From: Bacteroidota bacterium
GTDB lineage: Bacteria > Bacteroidota > Ignavibacteria > Palsa-1295
Assembly (NCBI GenBank): GCA_018266755.1
Contig: JAFDZW010000005.1
Location: 1,155,233-1,219,232, forward strand
Direction: 5' to 3'
DNA length: 64,000 bases
Shown here: piece by piece, positions 2,128 through 48,755 of the stretch
Numbering within the stretch: the first letter of the stretch is position 1
Layout of the letters: every line of letters starts with the position of its first letter
Notes under the pieces: generated by a model
Seen by the model: only the letters and a program-made list of their open reading frames with translations
Databases searched by the model: none
Told to the model about the DNA's origin: nothing
Position numbers and translations under genes: made by a program

Positions 2128-5100
2128 CTATCGAACGATCACCAGCGGCAGTACGACGACTGCCGATCCGTTCACGATGCGGACGAAATAATTTGCGGAT
2201 GGCAGGTCCGCAATATCAAGAATCAGCGGCGCATCGGTACCGATGATTCCTTCCTTGCGCGAATGAACACTCCCGAGACCGTCCACGACGTCGATCACGA
2301 CATATCCGTTCGACGTAGAATGGACTTCGGCGATGTTCGTTGCCGGGTTCGGTCGAACGGTGAATTGAGGAAGAACCTGATGGTGTAAGAACCGCGATAC
2401 AATCCCAACCCCGCACCCACCGATAATCGATACGGCGGCTCTGGCCGAATCTGCAACGGTGAACGCGCACGGGACGAACGTCCCCACTACCGATACCGAG
2501 TCGAACCATACTCGAGGTGTCATGATCGTGTCGGCAAAGACATTGAAATCGGCTGTGCAGATCGTCCCCGAGGTTGCTCCTTGTATCCGCAATTTTGCAC
2601 GGCCCGACCACGACTCGCTAGCGAGATCAACGGAGGTTCCACTCGCAGCATACGAACCGAGATAGTCGAGATCGGCAGTGACATCATAATGCAGTACCGC
2701 TTCGATCGTTTGCGATGAAGATAACCCGGAGAGCGTAAGCGGGACATGGATCGTCGAGCCAAGAACGCCGACGCTCTGGTCCGTCGTCGAAAGAGTGAGC
2801 ACTTGTTGAGATCCTCCAACGCCGTGTAATGGCACGACAAGGGTAGATCCGTTCGAGAACTGAATCACATAGTTCGCATCGCGTGCGCCTCCTCCGGAGG
2901 GAGAAAATCGTATCAACGCGGAGTCCTGGACGGCAATCGAATCGGCGACACCCTGCAACAGGGTGTAGTCGGCCGACGCAGGGCCGACGATCGATTGCGA
3001 GACGACACGCGCGCTGGGGCAGCCGGTTGCCACTACCGCGAAACGTTGCACGATCGGTGAGTCGCACGGGAACAGCGTATCCTGTGCGAATGCCACAGTG
3101 GGAGCGATCGACGAAGCGAATGGGGTTTCGACACCGACATCTTCCAGCGTGATCGTCACCAGCGTCCCGTCGGAAAATGTCAGGACGATCGCACCACGAG
3201 CGAGACCTCCCTGTGTGGGTGTGAACCGAACGACGAGGGAATCGAGATCGCCAACCGAATCCCGCATGATTTGGACGAGACGATACGACGGGTCGCCGGA
3301 CAATTGCTGAAGTATAATATGCGGCTGCGGACATCCATTACCCGTAAGATAAATCGTCCGATCGAACGGCGGATCGCAGATGCGTATTGTATCGCGCAAG
3401 ACTGACGGACTGGCCTCAGCCCCGAACGAATTCGCAACCCCAAACCCATTGAGCGGAATGCTAATCTTCGAACCGTCGTCGAACACGATCTCGTACGTCG
3501 CGCTGCGCAGACCGAGTCCATGAAGTGTGAAGCGCACCACCGCCGAATCCAATACTCCGATCGAATCCGGCACGGGTTGAACGAGAGTGTAGTCACCTGG
3601 CTGCGCGCCGACGATCTGCTGACTGACAATTTTCGGCACCCTGCATCCTCCGGCATGAAACCGAAAAACCCGTGTGAGTGCGCTATCGCAAAGTGTTAGT
3701 GAATCGGTCAATGCTGCCGGTGAGTATGTTCGAGTATATCCGCCAGGCGTGGTGAACGAGTTTAAGGGGATGCGCACTATGGTGCTGTCGGAAAAGACCA
3801 CCTCGTAGGTTGCGCTTCCGGCTCCGCTTGAGCTCGGACGGAAATCGATCTCGGCATAGTTTGCAACACCGAGCGAGTCGGGTGCCGGAGTAACAAGGGT
3901 GTAATTCCCGCTGCCAATAATACGCTGCGAGACGATATGCGGCATGAAGCAACCCTTCACCGAAAAGATGACACGATGCGTTACAGGCGAATCGCAGAGT
4001 GTAAGCGAATCGGTGATCGAAGCGGGCGAGGCCGTGCAGATGAACGGCACTCCCCTGCCATTCCCATTCAACGAGACCAGTTGTGTGCTGCCGTCATCTG
4101 CCGTGAGCAGCAGTGTTGCCGGAAGTTGGCCGTGAATGCCTGTCGGGGTAAGCGTTACGACTACCGAATCCGATGTTGCAAGCCATGCACTGTAGGAAGC
4201 GGCATCCTGACCATACACACTGACACTCTTCAACTTGACGGGCAGACACCCGGTATATCCGCACGTCAACATTCGAACGATGCTATCGGAGCAATCGACG
4301 ACGGTATCTCCATCGAACAAGGAAGCGACGCTTGGCGAGAGCGTACCCGCGTTCGGGACTCGTCTGATCGAATCGTTGCCGCTGTTAGTCGTACGCCAAC
4401 AATTCCCGTTGGCGTCTACCGCAAAGACGGTGTTGTCGTTCTTCGTACATACAAGATGCGCATCGATGATTCCCGACGGTCCGCCGATCTTCTTCCATGT
4501 TCGCCCATGATCGAGCGATCGAAGCAGTCCGTCGAGCGTCTCGGGTGTGGTCTGCACATAAAGCGTGCCGCCAAGCGAGTTCGTTATGCAGCCGGTGTAG
4601 TACGTGATGTCGCTGTAGGCCACCTGTGGAAATGTCAAGCCATTATCGAACGAGTAGTGGAGGCGGCTGCGCAAGTCGCTTTCCGGTGCTGCCGTTCCTT
4701 CGTTGACGATATTGAACTGCCCCCAATTACACGAGTCGAGCGCGAAGCTATAACAATCGTAGGTATAGCCGCCGGCCGATGTGGTCCACGTCAGGCCATA
4801 ATCCGACGACCACAAGACACGAGAACCAGTCGAACCGTTGAGCTTGATGATATAGATAGTATGGTTTGCATGACGCACGAGCAGATTCGTGAGGTCACCG
4901 TTGTATGGCGGGACGATGCGATTCCATGTCGTGCCGCCATCTTGCGTCACCCACACAATCCCCGCGCCGGTTGCGACAGCGATGATATAGGGCGACGACA
5001 CAAATTTCGCTTGCGTCCAGAATGAATCCGGCAGATTTGCCGCCGACCAGTTCGCTCCACCATCACGCGTTATATATGGCCCGAAATAATGGCTGAGGAC

Positions 5101-5394
5101 GACACCGTTGAGACTATCATAAAAGTCAACATCGAGTGTCTTGGCCGCTGCAAGTGGAAAGTTAACAGTATGGGTTATCCACGTGACACCGTCGTCGGAA
5201 CTCTCCATTACTGTATTCTGCGACGTGGCATAGACCCTGCCTGCACAATAGGCGATGGCACCATCGAACGACTGGTCGAGTGTCAGCAGGCCGGACTTCA
5301 TGAGCTGCCACTGTGCCTCTGCGGGACCGGCGAAGACCGATAGGAAATAGAGTACAACAACCACCCACAGACGGTGGTAGCATTTACTGCTCAT
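2128..5394 (-). CDS. Large T9SS-sorted surface protein with Asp-box head and four ~100-residue repeats
   Basis: About 1,088 residues from the chosen ATG at 5394, which gives a clean signal peptide (RLWVVVVLYFLSVFAGPAEA). An in-frame ATG at 5415 would add seven residues. After the signal comes a beta-propeller region with Asp-box motifs (SDDGVTWI, TRDGGANWS, TQDGGTTWN, SLDHGRTWK). From about 4045 down to 2820 the protein is made of four tandem units of about 100 residues. Each opens near DSLTLCDSP, has a paired Cys and a conserved PDSxGVxD segment, and ends in a strand resembling choice-of-anchor D / Spd-2-like Ig domains. The C-terminus (VRPNPATN ... ADLPSANYFVRI) is a T9SS type A sorting domain. 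It is therefore exported across the outer membrane; ligand unknown. Confidence 0.85.
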   Translation of the reverse strand: MSSKCYHRLWVVVVLYFLSVFAGPAEAQWQLMKSGLLTLDQSFDGAIAYCAGRVYATSQNTVMESSDDGVTWITHTVNFPLAAAKTLDVDFYDSLNGVVLSHYFGPYITRDGGANWSAANLPDSFWTQAKFVSSPYIIAVATGAGIVWVTQDGGTTWNRIVPPYNGDLTNLLVRHANHTIYIIKLNGSTGSRVLWSSDYGLTWTTSAGGYTYDCYSFALDSCNWGQFNIVNEGTAAPESDLRSRLHYSFDNGLTFPQVAYSDITYYTGCITNSLGGTLYVQTTPETLDGLLRSLDHGRTWKKIGGPSGIIDAHLVCTKNDNTVFAVDANGNCWRTTNSGNDSIRRVPNAGTLSPSVASLFDGDTVVDCSDSIVRMLTCGYTGCLPVKLKSVSVYGQDAASYSAWLATSDSVVVTLTPTGIHGQLPATLLLTADDGSTQLVSLNGNGRGVPFICTASPASITDSLTLCDSPVTHRVIFSVKGCFMPHIVSQRIIGSGNYTLVTPAPDSLGVANYAEIDFRPSSSGAGSATYEVVFSDSTIVRIPLNSFTTPGGYTRTYSPAALTDSLTLCDSALTRVFRFHAGGCRVPKIVSQQIVGAQPGDYTLVQPVPDSIGVLDSAVVRFTLHGLGLRSATYEIVFDDGSKISIPLNGFGVANSFGAEASPSVLRDTIRICDPPFDRTIYLTGNGCPQPHIILQQLSGDPSYRLVQIMRDSVGDLDSLVVRFTPTQGGLARGAIVLTFSDGTLVTITLEDVGVETPFASSIAPTVAFAQDTLFPCDSPIVQRFAVVATGCPSARVVSQSIVGPASADYTLLQGVADSIAVQDSALIRFSPSGGGARDANYVIQFSNGSTLVVPLHGVGGSQQVLTLSTTDQSVGVLGSTIHVPLTLSGLSSSQTIEAVLHYDVTADLDYLGSYAASGTSVDLASESWSGRAKLRIQGATSGTICTADFNVFADTIMTPRVWFDSVSVVGTFVPCAFTVADSARAAVSIIGGCGVGIVSRFLHHQVLPQFTVRPNPATNIAEVHSTSNGYVVIDVVDGLGSVHSRKEGIIGTDAPLILDIADLPSANYFVRIVNGSAVVVLPLVIVR

Positions 5395-5519
5395 CACATG
5401 ATATTTCTCATGCATTCTGTGCTGTTGGTACCTCCAGATCAAACAAGAACGTCCGTCAGAGTACTCCGCAAGTATCTCGCCTCTCCTCGTCGGTAAGACA
5501 CATCGGCCGGGATAAATGT

Positions 5520-5557
5520 GACAAAGCGGGAGCGCCATCCGACGCCCCCGCCTTGTC
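5520..5557 (-). terminator. Hairpin between the PuuD-like gene and the large T9SS gene
   Basis: GACAAAGCGGG (5520-5530) pairs with CCCGCCTTGTC (5547-5557) with one mismatch. In the minus direction it follows the stop of the PuuD-like gene by 19 bases. There is no strong U-run, so termination efficiency is uncertain. Confidence 0.4.
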
Positions 5558-10352: not shown

Positions 10353-10480
10353 ACAGCAGGACAGAACTCCGATCATAGAAGAATAAGCCCCGATGACGGG
10401 TCACAATCGAACATCTCCGGTAGTAGATGGTGCAACTATTCAGACGAGCGAGTGTTGCCCCATCAGATTCCATCGTCTCC

Positions 10481-12608
10481 ATGCAAGCATCATCAATGGG
10501 CCATTTACTCCTACAGTGTTGTATACTACTTGTCTCACTGGTCCCTTGTGCGACTCCAGGTTTTGCTCAATGGCAGTCAACGAGTGGACCAGCAGGCGGC
10601 GAAATGAAGCGGTTCGCAGCATCCGGGTCGTATCTGCTCGTTGCCTCTGAGAAAGCAGTACACACCTCAAGCGATGGCGGGAACACGTGGACCGTGACTA
10701 GCCCCTCACCGGACGGGTTTACTATCAACTGCATCGCCGCTGTCGGTGGAACGTGCTATCTTGGTACCGATCGAGGACTGTTTCTTTCGCTTGACAACGG
10801 GGCGACGTGGCAGCCCTCGACATTGCAGAGCATCATCGTGCGGGAGCTGGCATCACGGCGGGGTTCACTCTACGCATTGTGCACCGATGTTTCCCACTCC
10901 AACAGCGACGACGGTGAAGTCCGACGTTCAGACGATGGCGGCAAAACGTGGGTCCCCGACTTTCCCGGTCTTAACCACGTCCGGGTCACCCAGATGGTCG
11001 AAACACAGGGCGTGCTCGTTGCCGCCACATTCAATAAGGGAGTCTACCGGTCATTCGATGCAGGAAGTACCTGGCAACGATGCACTACAGGATTGGATAC
11101 CAGTTTCGGTGAGTACATGGGCCATCTGGTGGTCGATGGTAACCGAATGCTGACGGCGGCGAGAAGCGGGCCATGGGGAGTTCTTGAGTCAACAGATATT
11201 GGCCTGTCGTGGCACGTACTCGCGCTTGGTGACAAGGCAGTGAACTCAATCTTCCAAGCCAACACGTCGTTGTTCGCGATCAGAAGCGACGGACTCTTCC
11301 GATCTTCGGACCACGGCGCCACATGGCAGAAAACACAAGCCGACAGTGCACTCCAGTTACCAAATGACATGAACGACTACGGCAACCAGATCCTCTCCGC
11401 GGTTCGTGATGCAGTATTCCGATCGGCAGACGGGGGGATGACATGGGATCCATCGTCAACCGGGATCGCCGAGTCCAGCGTATGGGATCTGCTTCCGTGG
11501 AAGGACGGAATGCTGGCCTTTGTATGGGATCGTGGTGCTCAACACTCGACCGACCATGGCATAACATGGAGTCGATACTACATTCCATACCTCTACGGTC
11601 ACCTGCTCTTTGTGTATCCCGGAAACCAGCGAAACGGGCTGATCCTTGCGCTCGACAATGGGGTGCTTATTCGGACGTTCGATTCAACGACGTGGGAAGA
11701 AATCACGCCCCGAGTGTTCGGTTGGGTGTCCGGTTCGACCACAGGCCTCGTCGAACATAACGATAAGCTGTACTTCTCTTGCTACAAGGGAATTGCGGTC
11801 AGCTCCGATCATGGTGCCACGTGGAAGGACATCACGACAACTCTTGCATCCTAATCTTCCTTCTTGCAGCGTGGTGCTTGGATGTGATCAATCCATTAAC
11901 GTTGACGTCGCACGTCCACATTACCGATTCCGACTTGCAGACGATGGAAGCTGGGTACCAAACTCGGCTACGACCTCGACCGGTCTTCAACTCTTTCGGG
12001 AGTATACAAGACCTCCATATCCCGTCGTTGTTCGCTCCGGGCTCGTGGATGTTCTTGACTGTGCAGGTGCAACGGACACACTCTTGCAGCTAAGCGGTAA
12101 CTCGTATTGGTTTTGCGACGCAAGCCCAGATCTGTTTGTCATGGCCGACAGCGGCTTATTCAGGTCCACAGACCGAGGCGTCACGTGGACCAGAAGTTAT
12201 GATACGCTGCCGATCGGAATTCATTCTGCACGGCTGGCACGGTTCATGGATGGATGGTTATTCGCGGGAGTACCGGGCATGGGTGTCTGGAGGCTCAACA
12301 TCTCAGGCCATGATGACGGATCACCTACTCCCACCCCGCCGCCGTCGTTTACCAGTTCGCTTCAGGGCGACCCGGCGTCAACGTCTTTCCAACTGACAGT
12401 AAGTTGCCACGATCCTGGCACTGTCTCGGTCCGGGCCTACGACATTGACGGCCGGTTGCAGGCCGACATCGCCGAACAGTCATTCAGCGCGGGTGACCAT
12501 GTGCTGAAAGTGGATGTCAGTCGTTGGCCCCCGGGACGGTATCAGATCGTGGCACGTGCGGGTTCGAACCTCTCATCGAACGGATTGATCGTAGTGCACG
12601 ACCGCTAA
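10481..12608 (+). pseudogene. Asp-box beta-propeller T9SS protein, frameshifted
   Basis: Two overlapping frames together encode one T9SS-type protein. The first (ATG 10481, or 10496; signal peptide ending ATPGFAQ) carries at least nine Asp-box motifs (SSDGGNTWT, SLDNGATWQ, SDDGGKTWV, SSDHGATWK and others) and stops at 11854. The product continues in the next frame from about 11830: NLPSCSVVLG, another Asp box (STDRGVTWT) and a C-terminal T9SS sorting domain (SVRAYDIDGRL ... WPPGRYQIVARAG) ending at 12608. The shift equals one extra base, most simply near CTTGCATCCTAATC at 11842-11855. Without correction the first product lacks its sorting signal. Real mutation and sequencing error cannot be told apart here. 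The coding sense otherwise looks intact. Confidence 0.8.
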
Positions 12609-14431: not shown

Positions 14432-14761
14432 ATGATGAATTGGCCAAAAACAATCGCACTGTCCGAGTTGGACAAGCTGAAAATCGAGTGCGCACATGAC
14501 CAGGGACTACGCGACCGAATGGTGAAGAACCCGGCCGCGGTCCTTCAGGAGCGTGGGATCGAAGTACCAGCCGGCGTCAAGGTGAACGTGGTGCAAGATG
14601 CAGAGAACACGCACACGATCACCCTGCCGCCATACGTGGGTAGCGACCTCGCCGCAGCGACCATGGCAAAGGCATCGAATAGCGGTACATGGTGGTGTAC
14701 AACATGCACCGCCACGACACCGATCTGTGCCGGGTCCTTGGCATCGCTAACCTGCATCTGA
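14432..14761 (+). CDS. Class II lanthipeptide precursor with NHLP-type leader
   Basis: 109 residues (ATG 14432; a second ATG at 14435). Residues about 10-67 match the nitrile-hydratase-like leader peptide (NHLP) family: a helical start (LSELDKLKIECAHDQ), then LRDRMVKNPAAVLQERGIEV, PAGVKVNVVQDAENT and TITLPPY. The C-terminal core after about residue 81 (TWWCTTCTATTPICAG ...) has four Cys (89, 92, 99, 108) and many Ser/Thr (S82, S84, T86, T90, T91, T93, T95, T96, S102, S105, T107), as needed for (methyl)lanthionine rings. No Gly-Gly is present; removal of the leader near DLAAATMAKA is an inference. The synthetase gene follows 117 bases downstream. Confidence 0.88.
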   Translation: MMNWPKTIALSELDKLKIECAHDQGLRDRMVKNPAAVLQERGIEVPAGVKVNVVQDAENTHTITLPPYVGSDLAAATMAKASNSGTWWCTTCTATTPICAGSLASLTCI

Positions 14762-14796
14762 GCGTACGTAGTCTGTCACGCACGAACAGGTAATCG

Positions 14797-14828
14797 CACT
14801 GCGGTCCTCAACACCGAGGACCGCAGTG
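14797..14828 (+). terminator. Intercistronic hairpin (attenuator) between precursor and LanM
   Basis: CACTGCGGTCCTC (14797-14809) pairs perfectly with GAGGACCGCAGTG (14816-14828) over loop AACACC, followed by TTGCCTTTTGTC. A 13-bp stem with an interrupted T-run is expected to stop most but not all transcripts, giving more precursor than enzyme message, as in many lantibiotic operons. Confidence 0.75.
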
Positions 14829-14878
14829 TTGCCTTTTGTCATCAACGCATACCGAAGCGAGCTTCCGAAGACTTCCGA

Positions 14879-17791
14879 ATGCCAATACTTCCAACAGTCA
14901 CACAGAACTCTGACGATGAACCGGTCGACCTGGAGTTCAGCCAATCGCTGAACCGCAAACCGATCGTCAAGGAGTTGCTCTCCCCACTACTCGAGAGAGC
15001 GGCGGCAGAGCTATCCCAACGGCTTTCATCGACCGGATTATTCGTGAGCTCCGACGTACTGGCAGACCTGTTGCACGGGTATGAGCAAACCTTGGCTCGG
15101 CTGACCAATTTGATCATCGTTCAACGGTTCTCCAGCTTCCACCTCGTGCTCAACCCGTTGTGGCGTCCGCGGAAGGCGGCACCAGGTCCGGATACCGAAG
15201 GCAGAAGCACTGCCGTGCTTAACGCATACATCGAGTGGGAAGAGATCGAGCGCACATTCGGGCCGGATGGTTCGTACCCGGAGCTTGGACGACTATTGCG
15301 GATCGCACAAGAACATTGGTTGGTGATGTGCGAGGAGATTGTTGCTCGCGTATCCAAACATCTTCCCGATCTCGCGACGATCATCGGGGCACCTGTTACA
15401 GTGCTCGATGGTGTAACGTTTGGCATCTCCGATCCGCATAATTTCGGACGAACCGCCGTGATTCTTCGATTTGGTACTCACCGCATTCTCTATAAACCGC
15501 GGACCCTCGCCCCGGAAATGGCCTGGGCTCGGATTGTGGAGAAGCTCGTGAGGGAGTCTCTCGATCAAGAATTTCCACTTCCCCGGATCGCGGACTTTGG
15601 CGACTACGGATTCATGGAATTCGTGGGCAGGCAAGATTGCAGAGATCGTGACGCGGTTGCACGTTGCTATACCCGATACGGTGCACTGATGGGAATAGCG
15701 CACGCTCTCGGAACCTGCGATCTGCACCACGAAAACATCATCGTCAGTGGAGAGTACCCTGTCGTGGTAGATGCGGAGCCCCTGCTGCGTGCGCGGCTCG
15801 CACTTAGCACGCACGGAGACAAACGGCTACAGACGGAACAGAACTTGACGCTCGACGATCTGGATGTTCGTGAATCTGTCCTTGAGCTCGGAATACTACC
15901 GATCGCTGTGCAATCGCTCGTCAAGCGAGAGCACGATACAGACCGAGCCGAGCATCAGGAGATCGTCATCGGCGCCCTGAGCGCGTTCGCAAGTACTCCC
16001 CATATCGATATGGTGCCATGCGCGATCGGGAGTGACGATTTACAGATCCGTCCGGTGCAGGTGCAGTCGCATTCATCTCCGAATCTTCCGAGCTTCAACG
16101 GAGCCGTGCAACATCCGGAAGCATGGATCGACAGGATCATCGACGGGTTCTCGACCGTCCACCACTACATAAGTTGCCATAAGGATGAGCTAGTGGGTCC
16201 GAACGGAATCATGGCTGAGTATGCCTCATGTCCGGTGAGACTGCTGGCTCGGCCGACCATGGATTACATGAACGTGCTCTCGCGTTCGTTGAGTCCGCCG
16301 GTGCTCCGCTCCACGGAGTCACGCCGGGCGTTGATCGAATCGGACTTGGCGATCCTGAGCCAATTTCGAATGGACAACGTTCAAACACTGATCCCTGTAG
16401 AGATCGAAAGTTTGATGCGCGGCGATGTCCCACGCTTCGAGGTGGCGTCGGACGAAATACTGTGCGCAGGCGCCGAGCTCATGCACACACCCCTTGCAGG
16501 GGCGAAACTCCGTATCGAAGGAGTCGATGAATTCGATCGGCAGATCCAAATCCGACAGATTCGTGAGCGGATGCTCAACAGAGATCGCGAACTCTCTGTA
16601 GTTGCTCCGGATCCGACGAATGCAAGCGATGTGGAACGGCATGCACTTCAGCTCGTCGAGGCGATCATCGATGCTCGGATCGAACAGAACGGAAACACCT
16701 CATGGGTGTATGCTGCATATGCGGCTGGAGTCGCTTCCACAATGGCTCACAGCGATGTCGAATCGCTGTACGAAGGGAGCGCAGGTACAGCGATCGCGAT
16801 AGCGGAAGCGGCCGCCCTCACAGATGAGCGGGGTTGGATGCAGATAGCCCGATCGGTCTTCGATGCTGTTCGACGCACCGACGCTCCCGAGAGCGCTCGT
16901 CGGGGGTGCGGGATGGCAAGAGGTCTGGGCGGCTTGTTGTATGCAATGGCACGCGTCGGACGTTGCGCGCAAGACGAAGCGCTGATCGAACGTGCGGCAA
17001 CGATCGCGGTATCGTATGCTGGCCGCTTGGCCGACGAGGCAAAGCGTGACGAGGTGCTCTATGGACGAGCTGGGCTCCTGCTCTCCGTCCTCGCCCTATA
17101 TCGCTTGTCCCCAACAGAGTCGTTGCTGCGAACAGCCGATCACATTGCGAGATTGATCATCGCAAATGCAAAGCGCTCTGACAGCGGGGCAAGTTGGTCG
17201 GTAAACGGTGGCAAACCTCTGCCGCACGTCAGTCACGGTGCGTCGGGGATCGCAATGGCGCTCGCGAGGTACGCGGCCATTCGCAGCGATGCGGACGCAG
17301 CCAACGTTGCGATGCAGGCCATCGAATTCGACGATACGTTCTGGGTAGAACGCGAAGCCGGTTGGGCGGACGGTCGTTTTCTCGATGTACCGATGCAGGA
17401 TCGTACGAATTGGGGATGGTGCAACGGACGATCCGGGGCGTTGCTCGCGCGCTTTGCTATCGCGCATGATCTTGGGACTTCGTTCATCGGCGCGAAGGCT
17501 ACTCATGCGCTATCGGCAGAATGCATAGACGTACTATCGGATGTTTCTCCGGGATTGTGTTGCGGCACAGCCGGTGCGATCGATGCGTTGCTTTCCCTGC
17601 CCACAATCCCCGCGGATGCACACATCCAACATTGTATCGCTTGTGCGACAAAGGCTTTGGCTACGACCTCACCTGCGAGCAACTACTCCACGTTGGCAGC
17701 TTCCTTGTTTTCAGGGAGCGCAGGACTCGCCTTCGGACTGTTGCGAGCAGCACAGCCAACGCGGGTTAATCCCTTGTTGAGCTTCGTATAG
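14879..17791 (+). CDS. lanM: Class II lanthionine synthetase LanM, CCG (ProcM-like) type
   Basis: 970 residues, a full-length bifunctional LanM. The N-terminal half is the kinase-like dehydratase, with K206 (LYKPRTL), the D281/H283/N286 triad (CDLHHEN) and D298/E300 (VVVDAEPLL); the spacing from D281 to D298 and E300 equals that of characterised LanM enzymes. It phosphorylates and eliminates Ser/Thr. The C-terminal half is a LanC-like cyclase: LYEGSAGTA, VSHGASGIA, WCNGRSG (C848), LCCGTAG (C894, C895) and LFSGSAGLAFGLLR. The zinc ligands are thus three Cys, not Cys-Cys-His, the CCG type known from the promiscuous ProcM. Acts in the cytoplasm on the precursor at 14432. No transporter or protease gene is adjacent. 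Confidence 0.95.
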   Translation: MPILPTVTQNSDDEPVDLEFSQSLNRKPIVKELLSPLLERAAAELSQRLSSTGLFVSSDVLADLLHGYEQTLARLTNLIIVQRFSSFHLVLNPLWRPRKAAPGPDTEGRSTAVLNAYIEWEEIERTFGPDGSYPELGRLLRIAQEHWLVMCEEIVARVSKHLPDLATIIGAPVTVLDGVTFGISDPHNFGRTAVILRFGTHRILYKPRTLAPEMAWARIVEKLVRESLDQEFPLPRIADFGDYGFMEFVGRQDCRDRDAVARCYTRYGALMGIAHALGTCDLHHENIIVSGEYPVVVDAEPLLRARLALSTHGDKRLQTEQNLTLDDLDVRESVLELGILPIAVQSLVKREHDTDRAEHQEIVIGALSAFASTPHIDMVPCAIGSDDLQIRPVQVQSHSSPNLPSFNGAVQHPEAWIDRIIDGFSTVHHYISCHKDELVGPNGIMAEYASCPVRLLARPTMDYMNVLSRSLSPPVLRSTESRRALIESDLAILSQFRMDNVQTLIPVEIESLMRGDVPRFEVASDEILCAGAELMHTPLAGAKLRIEGVDEFDRQIQIRQIRERMLNRDRELSVVAPDPTNASDVERHALQLVEAIIDARIEQNGNTSWVYAAYAAGVASTMAHSDVESLYEGSAGTAIAIAEAAALTDERGWMQIARSVFDAVRRTDAPESARRGCGMARGLGGLLYAMARVGRCAQDEALIERAATIAVSYAGRLADEAKRDEVLYGRAGLLLSVLALYRLSPTESLLRTADHIARLIIANAKRSDSGASWSVNGGKPLPHVSHGASGIAMALARYAAIRSDADAANVAMQAIEFDDTFWVEREAGWADGRFLDVPMQDRTNWGWCNGRSGALLARFAIAHDLGTSFIGAKATHALSAECIDVLSDVSPGLCCGTAGAIDALLSLPTIPADAHIQHCIACATKALATTSPASNYSTLAASLFSGSAGLAFGLLRAAQPTRVNPLLSFV

Positions 17792-41374: not shown

Positions 41375-43462
41375 CTACTTGCTAACGATAACGGGAGCAC
41401 TCGACTGCCTATTTCCGAAACTCAAGACGCACTGATATGTACCGGCACGCAAAACCGACAGATCGAGCGGTATCTCATGAACACCAGCCTCGAGGCTGCC
41501 TTGAAACACCTGCTGCACCGTGCGGCCCAACACATCGACCAACTCGATCCGGACCTGGCCCGATTCCGGCAGCCCAAACGTGATCATACCGTTCGTTGCA
41601 ACAGGGTTCGGGACAACGCTGATGCGACCTATGTCAGCAGCTACATCTACATTCTTGGGTACGTCAGCGATCCCAAGTTCGGAGAGATCGCGATACCAGA
41701 TCCCTGCTCCTGCGGTTGCGGCGAATAACCGCATGCCATCTGTGGTGAGTTGAATCACCTCGGCATCGAGCAGTCCTTCCGATACCCTCTCAAAACTTGA
41801 CCCACCATCGTAGCTCACATACACAGAACTCCCGCCGGCGAGCGCGATTGCATTCCCGACAGGGAGAATACTATAATATTCCTGAAATGGTGGCGCGAAG
41901 GTGATCGTCTGCCACGAGCGCCCCTCGTCTGTGCTTCGCACGGCAGCATCACTGGTCGTTGCGAAGAGCGCGCCATCTGTCTGGGATAGTGACGTGACTG
42001 GCTGCGTTGGCAATGAATCAGCGAAGGGCCATTCATTACCCCCATCGGTCGAGTAGTGCAGCCCATCCGATGCGCCAACCCATAACCTGCCGCCGCGGCT
42101 AACGAACTCGGTCTTCATACCGCCAATATCAGGGAAGCGCGGACTCCAGACCACCCCGCCGTCTGAAGAGTAACTCGTAGTGTACCCCTCACCGATATAC
42201 CATCTGGAGCCAAGCCTGGTGAGTACTTCAACCGAACCCGGCGAGTTGATCGTCGTCCAGTTCTCCCCCAAGTCGGTCGTTCGACCGATCGAAGTATTGC
42301 CGACCACGTACAAGACCGAATCTTCAACATGAAACCCATTCGCGCCCGCATAGGTACTATCGCCGACCGTCACCCAATGCTGACCAAGATCGAAGGTACG
42401 TCGCACCGGCGAACGGTCCGATGCCGCAACGAAGAGCGCCGAGCGACAAATTGCCATGCGCTTGACCTGTGACAATCCGATACCTACGTTCCGTTCTGCC
42501 CACGTCAAGCCTCCATCGGTCGAGCGAAGCACGGCCGAACGTTGATCGCCGGCCCACAGCATACTTCCCTGATGATACAGCACATTCGGAATCAGCCTTG
42601 ACTGAGGCACATCGAGCCATGTCGAGCCGCCGTCAGTTGACCGGAAGCAACCGTACTCCGTACTGAGAAGGATATCGTCCCCATTCGCGACGAAGGCTGT
42701 TGCGCCCGTGGGCCCGTTCGGGACTGCAAGATCGTTCCACGTCTGTCCTGCATCGAGCGAACGGAGAATACTGAATGAACGTCCATCTTCATTCGTCCCG
42801 AAAGCATAAACGGTCGTGCCATCGACGAAAAAGGAGAACGGGTAGGCAAGAGCGCGAGCGGGTGGCCACGGCTTGAAAGTATTTCCCGTATCCATTGACA
42901 TCCATATTTGGTCACGAGCATACCACAACACCGTCGTGCCGATTGCTGCTACCGTGAAGGCCGGGGATGGCGAAAAGCGTCCGGCCGGTGCCGTCCAAGT
43001 ATTGCCTCGATCTGTGGACCGAAAAAATGATCCAGAGAACGAGAGACCGTAGACGATCGAGCCCGCCGATGCCAATGAGGATATACCTGTCAAGTCCTCG
43101 CTCGCGGTCATCCCATTCGATCGAACTGCAGAGCCATTTCTTACCCAAGTCCGTCCACGATCGTCAGACAGATACAAACCCACAGGCGTTGCGGCCAGCA
43201 AGCGACTTCCCGAGACCACCATCGAGCGGACCACACCCGAACCCAAGCCGTAGGTCACCGACTCCCATGATGCACCTGCATTAGTAGATCGGAAAATCCC
43301 TCCGCCATTATCCCCGCGAACGAATACGGTGTCCTCGATCGAAACGATCTGAGTGATGTTGCCGCCATACAAACCGGGGAGTTGTTTCCACTGGGCATGC
43401 AGCGTTGAGACCAACGCAAGACAAATCGATGTGACCGCAAGACTGCGAAGCGTGTGATTCAT
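41375..43462 (-). CDS. Asp-box beta-propeller T9SS protein (tandem copy 1)
   Basis: 695 residues from ATG 43462 (signal peptide LAVTSICLALVSTLHAQ). At least twelve Asp-box-like motifs along the chain (STNAGASWE, SDDRGRTWV, STDRGNTWT, SLDAGQTWN, STDGGLTWA, STDEGRSWQ and others) indicate one or two beta-propellers of the sortilin/YCF48 type. The C-terminus (SVVPNPVATNGMITF ... VLRAGTYQCVL) is a T9SS sorting domain. Same strand and architecture as the next gene upstream, 279 bases away. Ligand unknown. Confidence 0.85.
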   Translation of the reverse strand: MNHTLRSLAVTSICLALVSTLHAQWKQLPGLYGGNITQIVSIEDTVFVRGDNGGGIFRSTNAGASWESVTYGLGSGVVRSMVVSGSRLLAATPVGLYLSDDRGRTWVRNGSAVRSNGMTASEDLTGISSLASAGSIVYGLSFSGSFFRSTDRGNTWTAPAGRFSPSPAFTVAAIGTTVLWYARDQIWMSMDTGNTFKPWPPARALAYPFSFFVDGTTVYAFGTNEDGRSFSILRSLDAGQTWNDLAVPNGPTGATAFVANGDDILLSTEYGCFRSTDGGSTWLDVPQSRLIPNVLYHQGSMLWAGDQRSAVLRSTDGGLTWAERNVGIGLSQVKRMAICRSALFVAASDRSPVRRTFDLGQHWVTVGDSTYAGANGFHVEDSVLYVVGNTSIGRTTDLGENWTTINSPGSVEVLTRLGSRWYIGEGYTTSYSSDGGVVWSPRFPDIGGMKTEFVSRGGRLWVGASDGLHYSTDGGNEWPFADSLPTQPVTSLSQTDGALFATTSDAAVRSTDEGRSWQTITFAPPFQEYYSILPVGNAIALAGGSSVYVSYDGGSSFERVSEGLLDAEVIQLTTDGMRLFAATAGAGIWYRDLSELGIADVPKNVDVAADIGRISVVPNPVATNGMITFGLPESGQVRIELVDVLGRTVQQVFQGSLEAGVHEIPLDLSVLRAGTYQCVLSFGNRQSSAPVIVSK

Positions 43463-43741
43463 AGCATACAAAATGTTCGATTTTGGGCAACCACCTCTCA
43501 CAATAATTAGTGCCAATACACCGCCCCCGCCGAATTGCTACCGGCCTACCTCGACAATAACATTTGTGTATCAATACCCGTCGTGATGGTGAAGCCAGGG
43601 ACACCGAACAGGAACGTACGATGGGACGATTATACGACAACTCAACACCATCTCATTCTCTGCTGAGTCTTGAGAACGCCTGCTCATCGTTCATTCAGGA
43701 TTTTCAATAATAAACAATGAGTGCTGTCAGTCGGAATGAGA

Positions 43742-45760
43742 TCACTCTCGCACGATCATCTTCGTCGTAGTAGAGCGTTGAGTCACGATCCGAGCATAAT
43801 ACACCCCCGAACTCAGGTTCGACAGATCGAGTGTTGCGTCGCTGCCATACACATTCGGAATGTCCATCACTTGTTTGCCAAGGACGTTCATGATGGAAAT
43901 GCGTTCGATGTCATCCGGTGCATTGTGAATCGTGATTGTGCCTGCTGTGGGGTTGGGAAATAACACAACGCTCTCCATACGAATCGGCGGCGGTACGGAA
44001 GACAAATCCGAAATTGGGCGGCGCCAGACACCTTGCCCCTGAGTTCCGGCAAAGATATATCTCTCGTTGATCGAAAGGCATGTGACTGTATCGGTACCAA
44101 GTCCGATATTCCAGTTGCCCCAACTGACGCCGCCATTCGTCGACCGAAATACCCCGCGTTCGGTTGCGACAACTACTCCGGCTACGTTCGCAGCGAGAAC
44201 ATTCAAACCTGCATTCGGGAGCCCGTTATGAGCATCACTCCATGTTGTTCCACCATCGGTAGAACGATACATACCTGTTCCATTTGTTGCAACGATCACA
44301 GATCCGCTCATTGCCATCGTATACTGTGGGGAGTCTGGAAGTCCCAAGACGTTCGTCCATGAGTTTCCAAGATCTGTCGAACGAAGAACGTGATTCAAAC
44401 TATCGGTGCCAATCAAAAGTGAATCATAGCCGAAGTCCGGGTAGATACCCGCCGGTGCTAACGACCAGGTTTGTCCGCTATCGGACGAAAAATTTACCCC
44501 ATAGTGCGGACTGACATACACCAATATAGTACCACTACTTCGGACGATGTTCTCGCCCTGCCAACCTAAGAAGTCATATGCTCCGCTGCCAGCGAGGATA
44601 TGGAGGCCGTCCCAGAGAGAACCTCCGAACACATTCCGACCCATGGCAGCAAGCGTCATGATGCCGGATGTACCTTCCGCTTCCCAAGTCAACCCGTCAT
44701 CGGATGAGGTAAACAGCCCGTCCGGGGCGTAATTCCAGCTCCTCAACGTAGCAAAGAGCACGGAACTGGTCGACGCGACACTATAGATGAGGGTATTTGC
44801 TGGACCAACACCACTCCATGATACACCTTGGTCAGTTGTACGAAACAAACCACGCCCATTCGTGACAATGATCAGCGCTTCGGAAGTTGATATAAGCCCG
44901 TAACCATAAGTATCATTTTGTAGTATCGGGGGAAAACGAGTTGCAATCCAATGAACTCCTTGGTCGGTCGATCTATACAAACCGTCATAAGATACCGTGA
45001 ATAGATCAGAGCCTGAGACACTCATTTCGGTAATCGCCATCGATACGTCAGGTACTACATGTACCCAGGTTTTCCCACTATCTGAAGAGCGAAGGATGAA
45101 CCTATCTGTGGTGGTCGTGGCAAACAAAATCGAGCCCATCGATGAGACATGATTGACATGGCACGTATCCACTTGTATCCAGGTGGCTCCGCTGTCGATC
45201 GATCGAAAAATGCCGGACTCTGTTGTCGCTAACAAGTAGGCTCCGTTACCGAGAATCTGCCAGACATTGTCATTAGGCGTTTCGGGACCAGGTACCAGGC
45301 GAGTCCAACTCACTCCGAGGTCCGTCGATGCATAGATCCCTTCGTCAGGGCAGACATACAGCGTACTACCAACTGCAAATAGTGCTGACGTGTTTCTCGT
45401 GAACATATAGACTGGTAGATTCGCGTTCATTGGGGTCCATGTTGCGCCATTGTCCGTTGAACGATTAACACCGTTCGCATTTGTCGCAAACAGGTCGTTG
45501 CCGAGAATAGCCAACGAAGTAATCATTGTGTCTTTTAACCCATTGCCAGTCGATGACCAAGTTACTCCGTCATCCGTTGACACAAAGAGGCCATCGTTAT
45601 AAGAACCCGCAAAGATCGTCATTCCATTCTTAGTCGCAAAGGCCGAGAGCGAGGCTTCCGACGGGCCCGATGTTTGTACCCACTGGGCATGCCCATCCAT
45701 AGATCCGGTGACACACACCGAAGTACAAACCAACGCAAGACGCAGCAGAGACTTAAACAT
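43742..45760 (-). CDS. Asp-box beta-propeller T9SS protein (tandem copy 2)
   Basis: 672 residues; signal peptide to about residue 25 (LALVCTSVCVTGSMDGHAQ). About a dozen Asp boxes (STDDGVTWS, STDNGATWT, SIDSGATWI, SSDSGKTWV, TTDQGVSWS, STDLGNSWT, STDGGTTWS). T9SS sorting domain at the end (VVLFPNPTAGTITIH ... NLSSGVYYARIV). Built like copy 1 and like the frameshifted gene at 10481, so three members of this surface protein family lie in the window. Confidence 0.87.
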   Translation of the reverse strand: MFKSLLRLALVCTSVCVTGSMDGHAQWVQTSGPSEASLSAFATKNGMTIFAGSYNDGLFVSTDDGVTWSSTGNGLKDTMITSLAILGNDLFATNANGVNRSTDNGATWTPMNANLPVYMFTRNTSALFAVGSTLYVCPDEGIYASTDLGVSWTRLVPGPETPNDNVWQILGNGAYLLATTESGIFRSIDSGATWIQVDTCHVNHVSSMGSILFATTTTDRFILRSSDSGKTWVHVVPDVSMAITEMSVSGSDLFTVSYDGLYRSTDQGVHWIATRFPPILQNDTYGYGLISTSEALIIVTNGRGLFRTTDQGVSWSGVGPANTLIYSVASTSSVLFATLRSWNYAPDGLFTSSDDGLTWEAEGTSGIMTLAAMGRNVFGGSLWDGLHILAGSGAYDFLGWQGENIVRSSGTILVYVSPHYGVNFSSDSGQTWSLAPAGIYPDFGYDSLLIGTDSLNHVLRSTDLGNSWTNVLGLPDSPQYTMAMSGSVIVATNGTGMYRSTDGGTTWSDAHNGLPNAGLNVLAANVAGVVVATERGVFRSTNGGVSWGNWNIGLGTDTVTCLSINERYIFAGTQGQGVWRRPISDLSSVPPPIRMESVVLFPNPTAGTITIHNAPDDIERISIMNVLGKQVMDIPNVYGSDATLDLSNLSSGVYYARIVTQRSTTTKMIVRE

Positions 45761-46041: not shown

Positions 46042-47379
46042 CTACCTCGACAACAGCAGCGACTTATCGATCCCCGTCGTGTCGCCGACGACGCACCAGT
46101 TGAAGTTGCGGTAGTAGATCTTCGCAACGCGCTGGATCTGCTCGGGAGTGACCTTCGAGAGTTTGCTGAACGAGATGAACGCATTGCGCCATGAGCCGGT
46201 GAGGAGCTGAGCCTGTCCGATCGCCACTGCCTGCCCGATGGTCGTTTCCTGTTTGAGGTAATTGCTCGTCGTCCATTTTGCTACGCCGGACTTGATCGCC
46301 GATTCGAGGATCAAATTCTTCTGGAAGAAATCCACATCGTTGAAGAAGATCTTCACTGCGCTATCGACGTAATTGGTCTGGAAGGAAATCTCTTCGACGG
46401 CCGAAAGCCAATCGAGGTCGTCGTTGTTCGGCGCGTATGCGAGGTTCGTCTGGACGCGCAAGTGCTGGAAGAGGAACCCACCGAGGAAATTGCGCAAGCG
46501 AACGTACGCGTAGTAATCCGAATCGCCTTTGTTCGGGATGTGATGATAGCAGAGCACATAATTCGTCGGGAGCTTGCGGTCGATTGGTGGGAAGAATGCG
46601 CCGGGCGAATATGCTTGCGCCGGGATCGGCAGCTTCGGCGGCGTGAACGAGCCCATCGGCAGCGACGTCATGCCGCTCGAACGCATCTTCGCTTCGAGTT
46701 CTTTGCGGCTGACGTTACCGACCACGACGAGTAACATCCGCGACTTTATGACGATCGACTTGTAATAGTCGAGCACATGCGCCGGCGTCTGGGCAGTGAT
46801 CGATTCCGCCGTGACGTGCTTGCCGTACGGGTGATGGTGGAAGAACATCGAATCGAGCACGGCGTGGCTTAGGCGGTCGGGGTCGCTGCTTCGATCGCGC
46901 ACACCGACGAGTGCATTGCGCTGCAGGTTGCGAAACTCGGTGGTATCGACGACAGGATGCGCAAAAATATCGCCGAAGAACTTCCAGGTCGCATCGAAAT
47001 TCTCGCGTGTGCAGCGCATCGAGATTGTCGAGAAATCGCGGCCGTCGTTGCCGCCCATGACCGACCCCATGCGCAACATTTTCCGGCGGTATTGCTGCTT
47101 CGACGTGATCTCGCTGCCGCTCGACGGGACGAGCGCCATCGCGAAGTACTCGCTCGTCGGCAGTTCGTCTTTGCTCATCGCGCTCGTGCCGCCGCGAATG
47201 AAGCAGATCGCGCTCACGGTCGGCGCTTCCGTCGTTTCCCGCAACAGGACATCGATCCCATCGACGGAGAATTCCTGCACGTCGTCGATCGACGTATCGT
47301 CCATGCCGACGGCACGGGGTCTGGTCGGTGCGAGCGCAAGTAACGCGAAGACGAAAAGGGTCAGAACGAATTGCTTCAT
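46042..47379 (-). CDS. M16 family peptidase, non-catalytic partner
   Basis: 445 residues with an N-terminal signal (VLTLFVFALLALAPTRPRA). Two M16 domains by layout, but the HxxEH zinc motif is absent: the corresponding segment reads GTSAMSKDELPTSEYFAMAL. This is typical of the partner subunit in two-gene M16B systems, which helps form the peptide chamber. It overlaps the catalytic subunit by four bases, so translation is coupled. Periplasmic; substrate unknown. Confidence 0.85.
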   Translation of the reverse strand: MKQFVLTLFVFALLALAPTRPRAVGMDDTSIDDVQEFSVDGIDVLLRETTEAPTVSAICFIRGGTSAMSKDELPTSEYFAMALVPSSGSEITSKQQYRRKMLRMGSVMGGNDGRDFSTISMRCTRENFDATWKFFGDIFAHPVVDTTEFRNLQRNALVGVRDRSSDPDRLSHAVLDSMFFHHHPYGKHVTAESITAQTPAHVLDYYKSIVIKSRMLLVVVGNVSRKELEAKMRSSGMTSLPMGSFTPPKLPIPAQAYSPGAFFPPIDRKLPTNYVLCYHHIPNKGDSDYYAYVRLRNFLGGFLFQHLRVQTNLAYAPNNDDLDWLSAVEEISFQTNYVDSAVKIFFNDVDFFQKNLILESAIKSGVAKWTTSNYLKQETTIGQAVAIGQAQLLTGSWRNAFISFSKLSKVTPEQIQRVAKIYYRNFNWCVVGDTTGIDKSLLLSR

Positions 47380-48755
47380 CTCGGAGTCGGTACCAAAGCG
47401 TCGTGAGTGAGGTCGCGCGGATTGAGATCGTACTTCAACAGATCGCCGGCTTTGACGGCGATCGAAATGACGTACGGTTTGCCGATTACGTATCGGCGCA
47501 AATATTCATTGATATCCTTGCGCGTGATCTTCGAGAGATTATCAAGATACCCTTCGTAGTAATCGAGTCCCGTCGACGCCCACCAGAATGCGATATTCTT
47601 CGAAAAATCGGAAAGGCTCTCGCTATCGTAGAGGATGCGACTGCGAAGTTGCTGCTTCGACGTCTCGAGCTCTTCGTCACTGTAATAGCCGGGCTTCGTA
47701 AACTTGTCGAGCTGCTCCCAAAAGATCTTCATCGACGCTTTCATCCGCTCGGGCGGAGCGTAGATGTCGGCTTGGATCGGTCCAACGAGGCGCTGGGTAT
47801 AATACCAAAAATTGCGTGCCGACGCGACACCCGATTCCAGGAGCGACTTCGTAAATTCGTGCTCGTCCTGACGGATGATCTCACTGAACACATCCGCCGC
47901 GTATGTTCCTTTGTCGTCGATGCCGATCGACGGCCCGTGCCAGCGCACCAAACATGCGGCGGTTGGCGTCTCGACGAAATCGGTGACGTATTTATTCTCG
48001 GTAAGCGGCTCGATCGCCGGTTGAGTCGTGCCCTTGAATGGGTCGGGGCCGCGTTTCCAGGACGCGAAATATTTTTGTGCCAAATCTCTCACATCGTCGG
48101 TGGAGCAATCGCCGGCAACAATCAAGAGCGAGTTATTCGGGATGTAGTACTTGTCTTTGATGGCGAGCATTTTCTCGCGCGTGGCAGCTTTGATGGCTTC
48201 GCGCTGGCCGAGCGCTTCCTTGCGAATCCAGTTGTCACCCCAGATTGCCTTCTGCAGGTCGCGGTTAAAATTAAAGAATGGCGAGGCTTCGTCGCGGTCA
48301 AACTCGGCGAGCACGACGGCGATCTGCTGATCGATCTCCTTCTGCTTAAAGAGCGGATGCATGATGGCCGTCGCCATGAAGTCCATCCCTTCTTCGATGT
48401 TCTGCTTGGGAAGTGTGAAGTAGTACTGCACGTTCTCCTCATGCGTCTCACCATTATAGACGATGCCGAGGCGATCGACGCGATCAAGAAAATCTTCTTC
48501 GCTCGTATCCTTCTCGTTGGCGGTGAAGAACATGTGCTCGTAGAGATGGCTGAGGCCGTTATATTCCTGCGACTCGGTGAACGAGCCGTTCTTGACCGCG
48601 ATCTCGACGGTCACGATGGGCGTCAGGTGATTCTCGACGACCAGCACTTCAAGCCCGTTATCGAGCTTGAAGCGTGTCCAGTGCGGCAACTGTGCGAGCG
48701 AGGTCTGTGTGGCAAGCCCCACAAACAGAACAGCAAGAGCAATGCGTATGCGCAT
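47376..48755 (-). CDS. M16 family zinc peptidase, catalytic subunit
   Basis: 459 residues with a signal peptide (ALAVLFVGLATQTSLAQ). Inverted zinc motif H70-L-Y-E73-H74, with the distal Glu ligand E151 (VVLAEFDR), 77 residues on. The R/Y-type substrate-binding block sits in the C-terminal half. Degrades peptides or processes exported proteins in the periplasm together with the downstream partner. First gene of the pair, with a family A repeat upstream. Confidence 0.92.
   Translation of the reverse strand: MRIRIALAVLFVGLATQTSLAQLPHWTRFKLDNGLEVLVVENHLTPIVTVEIAVKNGSFTESQEYNGLSHLYEHMFFTANEKDTSEEDFLDRVDRLGIVYNGETHEENVQYYFTLPKQNIEEGMDFMATAIMHPLFKQKEIDQQIAVVLAEFDRDEASPFFNFNRDLQKAIWGDNWIRKEALGQREAIKAATREKMLAIKDKYYIPNNSLLIVAGDCSTDDVRDLAQKYFASWKRGPDPFKGTTQPAIEPLTENKYVTDFVETPTAACLVRWHGPSIGIDDKGTYAADVFSEIIRQDEHEFTKSLLESGVASARNFWYYTQRLVGPIQADIYAPPERMKASMKIFWEQLDKFTKPGYYSDEELETSKQQLRSRILYDSESLSDFSKNIAFWWASTGLDYYEGYLDNLSKITRKDINEYLRRYVIGKPYVISIAVKAGDLLKYDLNPRDLTHDALVPTPR

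Follow-up and report, generated by a model that had tools for sequence, protein, structure and literature searches.

Landornamide-type systems yield proteusin lanthipeptides through the combination of an NHLP-led precursor, a LanM synthetase and an epimerase. An arginase has also been described for this type of system (PMC10028609). The prochlorosins, by comparison, derive from many precursors in which the Nif11 leader and its Gly-Gly motif are conserved and the cores are variable (PMC10783134). Their synthetases, ProcM and SyncM, are bifunctional LanMs with a three-Cys zinc site, and the precursor genes can sit apart from exporters. In the roseocin family, a two-component lantibiotic of Actinobacteria, the precursors have an NHLP leader and the class II synthetase (RosM) carries a CHG rather than a CCG zinc site; the same study associated CHG enzymes with NHLP leaders and CCG enzymes with leaders of the Nif11 type (PMC10027976). 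NHLP leaders end in a typical leader cleavage site, which in the sister Nif11 family is usually Gly-Gly (Haft et al., PMC2887384). As of a 2020 survey, the pinensins were the sole lanthipeptides isolated from Bacteroidetes (PMC7268733).

The locus described here lies in a window of 64,000 nucleotides, the whole stretch of DNA that was analysed, and consists of two genes on the plus strand. The first, at 14432..14761, encodes a lanthipeptide precursor of 109 residues with an NHLP-type leader and a four-Cys core, and the second, 117 bases further on at 14879..17791, a class II lanthipeptide synthetase (LanM) of 970 residues. The coordinates, lengths and motifs described in the original prediction were reproduced from the sequence, and the prediction had also described the flanks correctly: ahcY and def, both on the minus strand, are the immediate neighbours, and the window annotation places no gene for transport, proteolysis, immunity or regulation next to the pair. 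An NHLP leader and a LanM are thus held in common with the landornamide-type system; however, neither a radical SAM nor an arginase gene lies beside the locus. In contrast to the prochlorosin systems, there is one precursor, its NHLP leader is devoid of a Gly-Gly site, and its core is fixed. We regard the pair as most probably an intact class II lanthipeptide cassette of two genes, rare and portable, whose product is fixed and whose export and leader removal are unclustered or non-canonical. In such a cassette the NHLP leader would hand the core to the LanM, which would phosphorylate and then eliminate core Ser/Thr residues, and the three-Cys zinc site would join the four Cys to the dehydro residues so produced, closing as many as four (methyl)lanthionine rings. 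A hairpin in the spacer would ensure more precursor than enzyme. Any leader removal and export would fall to genes elsewhere in the genome, since the leader lacks a Gly-Gly site and has no C39 exporter alongside it.

The LanM matches TIGR03897 over its full length (481.5 bits against a cut-off of 304; model positions 2-932 of 932) and comprises a dehydratase domain (DUF4135, E 6.7e-85; residues 133-522, 15275..16444) and a LanC-like cyclase domain (LANC_like, E 5.9e-39; residues 629-962, 16763..17764). The residues needed for phosphorylation and elimination have been identified in CylM (PMC4550811), and their counterparts in the window LanM are all present: D185, H187, K206, D281, H283, N286, D298, R454 and T460. 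The zinc ligands C848 (17420..17422) and C894 and C895 (17558..17563) occupy the same alignment columns as the ligands of 50 other LanMs, and residue 895 is Cys, making this a CCG rather than a CHG site. Together with the full-length profile match, this alignment confirms the complete enzyme and three-Cys ligand set that had been proposed. An AlphaFold model built from a 21-row alignment has a pLDDT of 82.9, with lower confidence around residues 880-940, and its best PDB matches are LicM2 and CylM, at whole-chain TM-scores of 0.45 and 0.43; values this low suggest that the domain arrangement is different or poorly modelled. The reduced confidence near residues 880-940, along with the strong divergence and long branch of the cyclase, would fit an enzyme that dehydrates only, or cyclises poorly, and so releases a linear dehydropeptide. 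We judge this very improbable, as the three zinc ligands, the WCNGRSG and GLCCGTAG motifs that flank them, and the core Cys residues are all conserved.

The precursor matches the profile TIGR03793 for nitrile-hydratase-like leader peptides (NHLP) with an E-value of 4.4e-10 although its 39.3 bits fall under the curated cut-off of 50.9, a shortfall that counts against our preferred reading, and it also matches NHase_alpha (E 1.8e-4). Its leader departs from the usual form at its end. A Gly-Gly type cleavage motif is absent from all seven precursors compared within the group formed by the window and its Chitinophaga relatives, described below. Of 47 NHLP-like frames at sampled LanM loci, 40 have such a motif; the seven frames without it comprise three from this same group and four that are fragments or coreless. 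In addition to the four core Cys, a fifth, C20 of the leader, located in an IEC motif (14489-14491), is invariant across the group precursors despite the divergence of the leader.

Relatives are few. The LanM had no match in the 12 other genomes of the same order, and matches above the LanM cut-off are rare across the phylum, with five among 395 sampled genomes. A single-sequence query found nothing; with an alignment as the query, 84,980 species genomes yielded two close relatives, one in Chitinophaga sp. S165 (L072) and one in C. silvisoli (L073), with LanM identities of 39-41%; all other listed matches were at 22-28%. In both, the gene immediately upstream of the LanM encodes an NHLP-type precursor. 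A profile made from the three precursors then showed that 6 of 79 Chitinophaga genomes each have one intact copy and that a seventh has a decayed one; among 396 sampled genomes of the family, S165 itself was the sole match. The six Chitinophaga copies, those of S165, C. silvisoli and four more, carry the same genes in the same order, a spacer hairpin in every copy folded, a near-identical core and no Gly-Gly site, and with the window locus they form a true homologous set, even though LanM identity to the window is only about 40% and the flanking genes differ. The six genomes present the cassette in two different chromosomal neighbourhoods, among genes for histidine kinases and response regulators, an HPP membrane protein, a YhcG-type nuclease or a methyltransferase, none of which occurs beside the window locus. 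The unit that stays together is therefore the two genes alone.

The decayed precursor and LanM lie at about 9937-10523 of L178, in genome G1124, at the chromosomal site where C. silvisoli has an intact copy. It shows that the cassette can be lost and is dispensable, a point against our preferred reading. No clean empty site between ahcY and def was found in relatives, in which def did not lie within the ahcY flanks (up to 1.5 kb). Recent transfer, considered on the basis of base composition, is unsupported: the LanM has a GC content of 0.573 and a GC3 of 0.616, against host means of 0.560 and 0.679, and neither gene departs in composition from the host range. Searches for carriage on phages, plasmids or viral contigs gave no match to the precursor core or the enzyme clade, the plasmid matches being confined to the leader. 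The distribution is patchy and protein divergence is large, a pattern that does not distinguish ancient transfer from repeated loss.

It is the core that has changed least. The conserved core region, residues G85-I109 (GTWWCTTCTATTPICAGSLASLTCI; 14684..14758), is identical to that of C. silvisoli at 23 of 24 positions, as against 41 of 84 (~49%) for the leader and 387 of 936 (~41%) for the LanM. Synonymous differences between the two copies amount to 0.92, 0.90 and 0.85 per site for core, leader and LanM, respectively, and are thus saturated everywhere. By a crude test that ignores phylogeny, the core is more conserved than the leader (Fisher p 1.2e-5) and the LanM (p 3.2e-8). The residues invariant in the aligned copies are G85, T86, W88, C89, T90, T91, C92, T93, T95, T96, P97, I98, C99, G101, S102, L103, A104, S105, L106 and C108, so that four Cys face eight invariant Ser/Thr, and the group consensus is GTTWCTTCTATTPICAGSLASLTC. 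That the core remains near-identical while synonymous sites are saturated and the leader and enzyme have diverged argues for selection on a single product, and the near-unchanged product sequence in six Chitinophaga species suggests that the cassette probably makes one specific ring-shaped molecule. A core-string search of papers returned nucleotide strings only and no peptide match, although the Chitinophaga copies may sit uncommented in supplementary survey tables, and the core has no match in the PDB. The core represents a defined, testable new lanthipeptide sequence.

This conservation also bears on whether the locus might be decaying or silent, its genes intact but its product no longer made after loss of transporter and protease genes. 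The decayed copy in G1124 is consistent with such a fate, as is the lack of linked export, cleavage and immunity genes, which are found beside no copy of the cassette and whose absence counts against our preferred reading of a working cassette as well. However, nearly all of the core and all catalytic residues have been kept across synonymous saturation, and every copy has the identical two-gene layout, which makes the missing genes a rule of the family and not a local loss. We therefore consider a silent locus very improbable.

The original prediction had further envisaged a lanthipeptide family made by one relaxed enzyme, with more precursors elsewhere in the genome. The genome, which is 3.55 Mb in size and listed as 100% complete, proved by whole-genome search to encode one DUF4135 protein, the LanM, and one clear NHLP open frame. 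Queries with TIGR03793 and with the precursor itself identified no other NHLP-leader frame, the weak second matches either holding a stop or lying in long unrelated frames. A genome with one LanM and one NHLP precursor gives no support to an enzyme that, like ProcM, serves many substrates encoded at scattered sites. Such a diversity-oriented system could still be argued for on the grounds that the CCG zinc site is the same as that of ProcM and that this motif has been tied to promiscuity (PMC10027976). Yet a search for NHLP-type leaders found one precursor in this complete genome and a single one per genome in the six Chitinophaga species, no other part of the system is as conserved as the core, and the LanM falls outside the cyanobacterial CCG group; a ProcM-like arrangement is thus scarcely credible, and the envisaged family of products is not borne out. 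The CCG zinc motif and substrate promiscuity therefore appear separable, and since a CCG enzyme is here apparently tied to a single conserved core, the motif alone is unfit for predicting diversity-oriented systems.

The position of the enzyme was assessed with a cyclase-only tree of 46 LanMs, from which the odd column was omitted and in which cyanobacterial Nif11-plus-CCG enzymes stood in for ProcM, itself not included. CCG and CHG enzymes are separated by one split (support 74/88). The window LanM and four Chitinophaga LanMs form a group with support of 100/100 on the CCG side, on a stem of ~3.2 changes per site and, in this tree without ProcM, outside the cyanobacterial Nif11/NHLP CCG group. 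The description of the enzyme as ProcM-like is accordingly upheld for its motif only. Full-length trees likewise isolate the group but set it beside further long branches, so that its deep placement is tentative. A possible sister grouping with the L043 LanM was dropped, as it was weak and joined by long branches. This L043 enzyme (G676; frame from 864) is another CCG LanM of the same phylum, and directly upstream of it is a short precursor whose leader is Nif11-like by profile. Elsewhere among the cyanobacterial LanMs, those of L036, L037, L095 and L112 have zinc ligands that are partly or wholly replaced (e.g. WANG or WSHG for WCHG) and are possibly non-cyclising.

The pairing of an NHLP leader with a CCG LanM was considered as a novelty in itself and rejected, since among the sampled loci L119, L129 and L093 also have NHLP precursors beside CCG LanMs. 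At two of these, in Calothrix PCC 7103 (L119) and Nostoc FACHB-152 (L129), the precursor is directly upstream of the enzyme, as in the window; however, their leaders end in a Gly-Gly type motif, each locus has two similar precursors, and LanM identity to the window is 22-23%. We advance more tentatively the proposal that the window and Chitinophaga cassettes represent a distinct class II lineage, in which a deep-branching CCG LanM is dedicated to one strictly conserved core with a Gly-Gly-less NHLP leader, in a two-gene unit with non-C39 release or export and a target conserved across distant lineages.

The missing Gly-Gly site in every copy raises the question of how NHLP-led peptides are released without a C39 exporter. 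An orphan C39 peptidase/ABC transporter had been suggested as something to look for in the genome, and neither a C39-ABC fusion nor an orphan exporter was found there. What the genome does encode is one 286-residue C39-like protein, not an ABC fusion, beside an hslV-like gene, and five generic full-length ABC exporters that score far below the NHLM cut-off. The lack of both a Gly-Gly site and a C39 exporter suggests a different release route. It also lends some weight to the idea that the LanM modifies the precursor into an intracellular or leader-bearing product that acts inside the cell or at the envelope and is not a secreted antimicrobial, for which it may be added that no dedicated transporter or leader peptidase, and no C39-ABC exporter, is linked to the Chitinophaga cassettes. 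On the other hand, lanthipeptides can be processed by M16B pairs encoded away from the locus, and such pairs are widely distributed (PMC8960859). As unlinked proteases are thus known for lanthipeptides and the genome has generic ABC exporters, ordinary secretion is possible, and we consider an intracellular or leader-bearing product rather unlikely. The window itself carries an M16 peptidase pair on the minus strand at 46042-48755, 30 kb from the locus, in which one member has the HXXEH motif (HLYEH) and the other does not, the layout of an M16B heterodimer. That this pair might be the leader protease for the precursor is only a guess, such pairs being common.

With respect to expression of the cassette, the spacer between the precursor and LanM genes holds a hairpin of 14 pairs with a T-rich tail on the plus strand (14796..14829; fold z -3.7), a candidate attenuator or terminator. 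In each of the five Chitinophaga spacers tested, a strong hairpin occupies the corresponding position (z -3.4 to -4.9); by sequence these hairpins form three unrelated sets (L072/L176, L073 and L174/L175). A terminator scan of the window region overall found 3 sites against 2.8 in shuffled sequence, and the case for the hairpin accordingly rests on the 14-pair stem and its recurrence. By its position and recurrence, the hairpin is probably a conserved attenuator that brakes LanM expression and keeps the precursor above the enzyme. Elsewhere in the window, at 2128-5538, 10427-11854 and 41375-45760, are genes for large BNR/sortilin-like repeat proteins, most of them with type IX secretion sorting domains.
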